32,458 nt of DNA from Rhodoferax sp. (GTDB lineage Bacteria; Pseudomonadota; Gammaproteobacteria; Burkholderiales; Burkholderiaceae_C), in NCBI RefSeq assembly GCF_014859475.1, contig NZ_JACUUE010000011.1, forward strand, positions 1 to 32,458. The letters run 5' to 3'. The notes below the pieces were generated by a model that saw nothing but the letters and a program-made list of their open reading frames with translations, was not told where the DNA came from and did not search any database. This document shows positions 18,773 through 19,661 of this stretch, one piece after another; position 1 is the stretch's first letter, and each line of letters begins with the position of its first letter. The translations under genes and the position numbers were made by a program.

Positions 18773-18807
18773 AAAGCCCGCTGATTGCAGAGTCAGCGGG
18801 CTTTTTT
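18773..18807 (+). terminator. Rho-independent terminator downstream of the helicase gene
   Basis: 12-bp perfect stem AAAGCCCGCTGA / TCAGCGGGCTTT with T-tract. Confidence 0.93.
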
Positions 18808-18844
18808 GTGGCTGTCAGCAGCACAGCGCACGGCAGCACCAATC

Positions 18845-19083
18845 AACCTAGATTCCTCAGTTGGACGCGTCCGAGTGGGCTGCTGGTGGCGTGTCTGGGT
18901 AGGCGCGACGACGCAGCGGGCTACTGCCCGTAAGGAGGAGCAACGACCCCAGGCACGTTGCCAGCGGCGCTTGTCGCTCGCGTAGCGCTTTCACCCAAAA
19001 GGTGAACGTTATCGAAGTCACTTTTTCTAATCAGTTCAATGCCTTATCGAAGTTTTCAAGCAGTCAACTGAGGAATCTAGGTT
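18845..19083. mobile_element. MITE-like non-autonomous element, 239 bp, no transposase
   Basis: 19-bp perfect terminal inverted repeats AACCTAGATTCCTCAGTTG (18845-18863) and CAACTGAGGAATCTAGGTT (19065-19083); intergenic; possible TCA target duplication if the IR starts at ACCTAG. Confidence 0.65.
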
Positions 19084-19094
19084 CAAGCTTTGGC

Positions 19095-19661
19095 TCAAAC
19101 TATCTGCAAAGCCATCGCCTGCAGATTCCCCAACACAATGGCCGCCACCTGCAACAGCAGCAGCAACACCAATGGCGACAGATCAATACCACCCACCAGG
19201 GGAAGCACGCTCCGAATGGGACGCAACAGGGGCTCTACCAAACGTGCCATCACCCCACCAAGAACCGACGGCGTTGGCAGCCAGGACAGCACGGCATAAA
19301 CAATCACCACCACCGTCAGGCCGGAGATGGCCATGCTCAACAGACCAAACAGCGCCAAAACAGGCAACGCAAACAGTCCGCCGCCCGCCCCGGCAAGCAG
19401 CCAAAGCACGGCAAATTTGGCCAGTTGCAACAAGAATGCAGCCGCCAGACTGGCACTGTCAAGAAGCCCGAGCGCCGGCAACACGCGCCGCAGCGGCAAC
19501 ACGATCCAGTCGGTCAGGGCAAACACAAAACGCCCCAGCGGGTTACCCGAGCGCACCGACATGGGCACACGCAGCGCCTGCATGTAAAGCCGCAGCAGAC
19601 AGGCACCGCTGACCAGGCCTGCAGCCACCTCAAGCAACAAAGAAACAATCTGATAAAGCAT
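19095..19661 (-). CDS. YggT family membrane protein
   Basis: MLYQIVSLLLEVAAGLVSGACLLRLYMQALRVP...SGNPLGRFVFALTDWIVLPLRRVLPA...two YggT repeats. Confidence 0.9.
   Translation of the reverse strand: MLYQIVSLLLEVAAGLVSGACLLRLYMQALRVPMSVRSGNPLGRFVFALTDWIVLPLRRVLPALGLLDSASLAAAFLLQLAKFAVLWLLAGAGGGLFALPVLALFGLLSMAISGLTVVVIVYAVLSWLPTPSVLGGVMARLVEPLLRPIRSVLPLVGGIDLSPLVLLLLLQVAAIVLGNLQAMALQIV

Follow-up and report, generated by a model that had tools for sequence, protein, structure and literature searches.

An IS1380-related MITE with a conserved hairpin in Rhodoferax and other Gammaproteobacteria

Introduction

The gap between a helicase gene and yggT in a Rhodoferax sp. genome carries a 19-bp perfect inverted repeat, at positions 18845-18863 and 19065-19083 of contig NZ_JACUUE010000011.1. 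This contig, analysed over its whole length of 32,458 nucleotides and referred to here as the window, belongs to a 2.95-Mb draft genome of 354 contigs. The locus raises the question of what the segment bounded by the repeat is, what could move it, and why it is tolerated so close to genes. The initial annotation, made from the window alone, described a non-autonomous, MITE-like element of 239 bp with a 3-bp target duplication and named no parent family. It made no mention of three features reported below, namely a long conserved hairpin, the breadth of the family and the use of stop codons as insertion sites.

Results

The helicase-yggT gap contains a 235-bp mobile element

The 19-mer was searched in the host genome with up to 3 mismatches allowed, which gave 23 occurrences against none for a reversed control pattern. 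The repeat is therefore no chance match. The flanking genes were confirmed by their Helicase and YGGT domains, and the annotated placement agreed with the coordinates: the element lies downstream of the intrinsic terminator of the helicase gene (18773-18804, plus strand), a stem-loop outside the element that is also present in relatives with empty sites, and the in-frame stop codon of yggT (19095-19097) lies 8 bp past the right target-site duplication (TSD).

Comparison with other copies set the ends of the element at CCTAG...CTAGG, positions 18847-19081, giving 235 bp with a 17-bp perfect terminal inverted repeat (IR), CCTAGATTCCTCAGTTG. The outer AA/TT of the apparent 19-bp repeat is part of a 5-bp target duplication; because the usual target form, TTNAA, is itself palindromic, the apparent IR is lengthened by 2 bp. 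Thus, the repeat is real, and the lengths of 239 bp and 19 bp had to be corrected to 235 bp and 17 bp. The proposed 3-bp TCA duplication was an effect of the shifted element boundary and was replaced by the 5-bp pair ATCAA (18842-18846) and TTCAA (19082-19086), which are identical at 4 of 5 positions. The frame is fixed by other copies in the host genome, in which TTCAA, TTGAG, TTAAA and TTGAA are perfectly duplicated if the element begins with CCTAG. An exact 5-bp duplication was found in 54 of 99 copies and a match at 4 of 5 positions in another 28, and 5-mers displaced outward as a control gave 0 full matches in 480. In the exact duplications, T occupied position 2 and A position 4 without exception, and positions 1 and 5 were A or T in nearly all of them (WTNAW).

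The 239-mer had many matches in the host genome: some copies were full-length, at 93-96% identity, and many others were partial or consisted of ends. IR ends with at most 1 mismatch numbered 22, and a covariance model of the hairpin described below found 7 hairpins. Several copies lay at contig ends, as expected because repeats break assemblies. The yggT region was located in 76 of the 90 genomes of the genus, and in nine relatives that could be aligned both at yggT and at the end of the helicase gene, including its terminator, the junction was short and had no element. Since these nine junctions are empty, the element entered the window lineage secondarily. The sequence is thus multicopy, ends in IS-type termini and is not vertically conserved, and the initial reading as a non-autonomous, MITE-like element held in these respects. 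In Nitrosomonas sp. Nm33 (L194:6113-6119), the right end of one element was followed by a 5-bp TTTAA and then by the left end of another, an arrangement suggesting that one copy inserted into the duplicated target of an earlier one.

The 235 bp contain no transposase reading frame and have no coding capacity. The left IR (18847-18863, plus strand), whose ends were set by the TSDs of other copies, corresponds to the right end of the parent insertion sequence (IS), and the right IR (19065-19081, minus strand) to its left terminus. Between them lie a conserved hairpin of ~120 nt (18864-18986, plus strand), a mini-palindrome, TTCACCCAAAAGGTGAA (18990-19006), with CACC/GGTG arms in nearly all aligned copies, and an AT-rich arm (19007-19064, minus strand). 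The mini-palindrome is the counterpart of a start-codon palindrome of the ISs, TCACCCAATGGGTGA, and from its position and the shared palindrome the AT-rich arm probably corresponds to the IS region from the left terminus to the transposase start. The plus strand of the element carries the conserved fold, and the minus strand resembles the left end of the parent IS. The element is short and without a transposase gene, has terminal IRs and TSDs, and occurs as dispersed copies with empty sites. Its ends are of the CCTRRATTC type, with a 5-bp duplication, as in IS1380. Lacking a transposase of its own, it is not itself an IS1380 insertion sequence and is instead an IS1380-related MITE.

The conserved plus-strand hairpin shows paired changes

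Folding of the 239-nt segment gave -117 kcal/mol (z -7.9) on the plus strand and -95.5 kcal/mol (z -5.2) on the minus strand. The hairpin alone had a minimum free energy of -73.7 kcal/mol (z -4.5), and the window copy scored 112.5 bits with the covariance model. Alignment of 37 diverse copies showed that 95.5% of cells were paired and that 45 of 62 pairs had changed on both sides; slid controls were 32-42% paired, a comparison favoured by the derivation of the structure from the same 37-copy alignment, but not to the observed degree. None of 500 shuffled alignments reached any of the measures.

When pairs were restricted to those with a Watson-Crick share of 60% or more, a filter that favours neither strand, the plus strand had 81 G-T and 17 A-C cells (p 4e-11, an indicative value, since related sequences are not independent and the pair set was predicted on the plus strand, which somewhat favours G-T). 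G-T and A-C cells mirror each other between strands, and because G-T far exceeds A-C on the plus strand, the plus strand is taken as the folded one. The bias was also visible in most of the divergent lineages taken separately. This pattern of substitutions indicates that the plus-strand fold is probably under selection, as RNA or single-stranded DNA. Covariation would look alike for both, and the folded molecule is most likely RNA.

The hairpin was found neither in the autonomous ISs nor in the 117-bp short forms that were examined. Rfam gave no match near threshold in the window and none at the gathering threshold in six diverse carriers, and a search for promoter-like sites was negative. Copies were oriented without bias relative to operon genes (20:20). 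With orientation random, any role of the hairpin most likely lies in the life cycle of the element and not in that of the host.

Insertion sequences with matching ends probably form a divergent IS1380 subgroup

The genomes of divergent carriers of the MITE were searched with an IS1380 model, which located ISs with matching ends in Oxalobacteraceae, Accumulibacter and Nitrosomonas; such ISs also exist in the host genus, Rhodoferax. The IS in Accumulibacter (L271) is 1744 bp long, with TSD TTTAC and IR CCTATTTTCCTCAGTTG, and that in Nitrosomonas Nm33 (L279) is 1729 bp long, with TSD TTTAT; the IRs of both are a few mismatches from that of the MITE. An IS in Oxalobacteraceae (L289) has an IRL, CCTAGATTCCTCAGTTG, identical to that of the MITE. 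Usually, the MITE IR and the IS IR were 2-3 positions apart. The parental transposases are DDE-type proteins of ~525-555 aa, with NF033539 (IS1380) as the best family match by far (E 7e-36 to 1e-41) and with Pfam matches to DDE_Tnp_1_4/DDE_Tnp_1, of which DDE_Tnp_1_4 was above cut-off. Because their scores of 124-143 bits lie below the NCBIfam IS1380 cut-off of 180 bits, we assign them to a divergent IS1380 branch, and the parent family that had been left blank can now be given as a probable divergent subgroup of IS1380.

The parental transposases (L289:1369, L271:1366, L279:1369) start inside the palindrome TCACCCAATGGGTGA, in the form TCACC(C/A)AATGGGTGA, at a distance of ~77-125 bp from the IS left end, and have their stop codon at the right IR. 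The minus strand of the MITE has the same palindrome ~79 bp from its end, with the ATG lost in most copies, and the distance from IR to palindrome is ~77-79 bp both in the MITE and in the shorter ISs. Matches to the transposase subgroup, intact or decayed and some of them distant, were present in 22 of 90 same-genus genomes. Where the ends could be read, the IRL was CCTATTTTCCTCAGTTG, CCTAGAAACCGCAGTTG or CCTATTTCCGGCAGTTG; one such IS has IRL CCTATTTTCCTCAGTTG, an IRR ending in AACTGAGGAATTTAGG and the ATG inside the palindrome. The window's own 354-contig draft, in which repeats break contigs, yielded no autonomous IS of the subgroup, and the exact-IR loci examined had no matching transposase. 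From the matching ends, the element is very probably moved in trans by the IS1380-type transposase of a relative.

Ordinary IS1380 elements of the same genus have CCTGAATCC ends and 5-bp TSDs (TGAGT, TGGAT, TTGAC). One ordinary-subgroup transposase gene in the host genome (C89, L038:1441-2283) is internally deleted and still open, as an in-frame fusion joining profile positions 8-174 to 347-418, and has upstream of it a palindrome similar to that of the MITE. This remnant was rejected as the parent, the ordinary ends being unlike those of the MITE, and so were IS1380 copies in four genomes (G006, G070, G073 and G082), with CCTGAATCC-like ends or no matching ends.

Many insertions coincide with stop codons

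The TNA core of the target reads as TGA or TAA on one strand or as the complement on the other, and a WTNAW target can therefore coincide with a stop codon. Outside called ORFs, 24 of 59 insertions (~40%) lay exactly on a stop codon, compared with 43 of 923 (4.7%) comparable background WTNAW sites of the same loci (p 5e-17); gene calls were simple longest-ORF calls, and these numbers would shift with proper annotation. Independent copies from across the class gave 5 of 15 on a stop codon against 11 of 286 in the background. Stop codons received 24 insertions per 82 background sites, compared with 4 per 316 sites at 21-60 bp downstream.

Where two genes meet in ATGA or TTGA, duplicating the target rebuilds the stop codon upstream as well as the start codon downstream. 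Because the duplicated target often contains a stop codon, together with the next start codon at such junctions, the flanking genes stay intact, plausibly the reason why many copies are tolerated. The window copy falls outside the stop-codon class: the TCA that it duplicated lies past the yggT stop by four codons, in the same frame. The longest-ORF calls had misplaced this copy 'inside ORF', a class that is unreliable for that reason.

The family extends across the Gammaproteobacteria

The element was present in 26 of 90 same-genus genomes, one of which had 136 IR ends. When GTDB genomes were scanned for the exact IR, carriers turned up in Nitrosomonas, Azonexus, Polaromonas, Oxalobacteraceae, Arenicellales, Thiotrichaceae and others, with elements mostly of 233-237 bp. 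A scan of 396 family genomes gave no exact IR beyond the genus, but that query is too strict; the covariance model, which reveals the wide spread, matched 41 of 369 genomes sampled across Gammaproteobacteria. Twenty-nine class-wide loci were checked. In the stronger ones, the hairpin starts exactly 17 bp inside an IS1380-type IR and the element measures 233-239 bp, and the weaker ones gave no clear ends by simple search. The two IRs of the stronger loci vary together (CCTAGAAACCTCAGTT, CCTAAAAACGGCAGTT, CCTAAAAACGGCGGTT).

Viral and phage collections gave no matches. The one plasmid match is a copy on p5, a conjugative IncP plasmid of Caballeronia grimmiae (NZ_CP084278.1, 25509-25742; L149:4001-4234), which begins 2 bp past the stop codon of a gene of the phospholipase D family. 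This plasmid is a possible vehicle between species.

Other lengths exist as well. Short forms, of 117 bp, appear to have lost the hairpin by deletion between repeats at its base. Among forms of 318 bp (L136, L138, L142, L248, L257), those inspected carry an extra ~83-bp palindromic module nested in the hairpin. Four further loci (L196:1784, L220:485, L230:1650-1838, L242:4315-4503) have the same IR type with a different, REP-like palindromic cargo (GGAGCGGGCTTGCCCGCGA-like).

Discussion

We propose that the element is a MITE derived from a gene-less IS and mobilised by a transposase of the IS1380 subgroup, that it inserts at WTNAW sites and that its hairpin fold has been selected, an explanation that we hold very probable as a whole. 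The transposase would recognise the CCTAG-type IRs and probably the subterminal arm with its CACC...GGTG palindrome, and would move the 235-bp element in trans. Insertion at a 5-bp W-TNA-W target that is then duplicated is shown by the TSDs. The element would descend from an IS whose gene was lost: one of its arms would be the former left end of the IS as far as the transposase start, and the transposase would have been replaced by the ~120-nt hairpin, kept since then by selection on the plus-strand fold. Regeneration of stop and start codons by the duplicated target would leave the neighbours intact.

Other explanations were considered. The arms of long inverted repeats can become alike during replication, and the paired changes could come from such quasi-palindrome templating in an ordinary MITE with palindromic filler, a reading that also fits the strong hairpin of the opposite strand. 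Correction of this kind would, however, yield perfect Watson-Crick arms without strand preference, contrary to the excess of G-T over A-C; it is further opposed by the strong sequence conservation of the internal-loop region (GGCGCGACGACG...AGGAGGAGCAACG) and by the fixed total length of class-wide copies with clear ends, and we regard it as unlikely. The hairpin could also act for the host or as a regulator, as a structured non-coding RNA that happens to travel inside IS1380-type ends. Covariation with strand asymmetry is typical of structured RNA, the distribution is class-wide, and insertions in operons would put the hairpin in mRNAs. Against these points stand the lack of a fixed gene context with evenly split orientation, the patchy presence even within the genus, and the blank Rfam and promoter searches, which make a host function rather unlikely. 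Dispersal of a REP/BIME-type repeat by a RAYT (Y1) transposase would account for a palindromic, intergenic and multicopy sequence, but REPs dispersed by Y1 enzymes lack terminal IRs and target duplications. With perfect terminal IRs and 5-bp duplications here, and with DDE-type ISs that have matching ends, this origin is extremely improbable.

The excess at stop codons may reflect survivorship, other insertions having been lost by selection, and not a preference of the transposase. An insertion whose 5-bp duplication regenerates the stop codon, and also the start codon, would be neutral for coding sequences; on the other hand, stop sites exceed even the WTNAW sites of adjoining non-coding DNA. 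We consider the chances of survivorship to be about even.

Returning to the IS1380-mobilised MITE with a selected fold, the hairpin might be a structured RNA or single-stranded DNA that acts with the IS1380-type transposase, for example in synapsis, stability or stop-codon targeting. We advance this role as a speculation that is probably wrong. If true, it would mean a nucleic-acid co-factor for an IS1380/piggyBac-like transposase, for which we know of no precedent.

The family likeness to IS1380 lies in termini beginning CCTAGATTC and a 5-bp target duplication, which the MITE shares with ISEcp1 (IRL CCTAGATTCTACGT, IRR ACGTGGAATTTAGG, 5-bp duplication; PMC7864471). Another member, IS1247, is 1672 bp long with IR 16/13 and DR 5 (PMC3281130). 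The present element differs in that it encodes nothing and in that its parental subgroup is divergent, with the start codon in a palindrome and the stop in the right IR. The TTNAA duplications of the MITE also resemble the TTAA target of the eukaryotic piggyBac elements, and IS1380 transposases are the outgroup of piggyBac trees (PMC10813416). However, piggyBac duplicates 4 bp and not 5, the MITE is bacterial, and the likeness of the two is one of target sites.

Like other bacterial MITEs (QMITE1 and QMITE2 of Coxiella, MITEAba12, RUP, Correia/NEMIS, ERIC), the element is short, non-coding and multicopy, with terminal IRs, TSDs and a strong predicted RNA fold (PMC10969869; PMC5896051), and like QMITE2 it overlaps gene 3' ends. 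QMITE1 had no orthologues elsewhere by BLASTn (PMC5896051), and MITEAba12 is reported across one family (PMC6382973); in contrast to both, the present MITE spans many families of one class, at near-fixed length and with tested covariation. The pneumococcal BOX and SPRITE repeats are interspersed, form stable RNA folds and have been discussed as possible regulators (PMC10969869), but the present MITE has IS1380-type ends with TSDs. A 2024 review of prokaryotic MITEs does not mention IS1380 (PMC10969869), and queries with the IR and loop sequences and with IS1380 plus MITE returned no description of the element from the open-licence part of the literature.

Many described bacterial MITEs are local families, whereas the present one is class-wide and measures 233-239 bp where its ends are clear. 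Its covarying hairpin, absent from the ISs that probably mobilise it, raises the question of whether a DDE transposase may work with a folded RNA or DNA partner, and its frequent landing on stop codons without damage to neighbours raises that of how a transposon can be nearly harmless in compact genomes. The family also explains many 235-bp repeats that have gone unannotated in the genomes of environmental proteobacteria, and many breaks in their assemblies.
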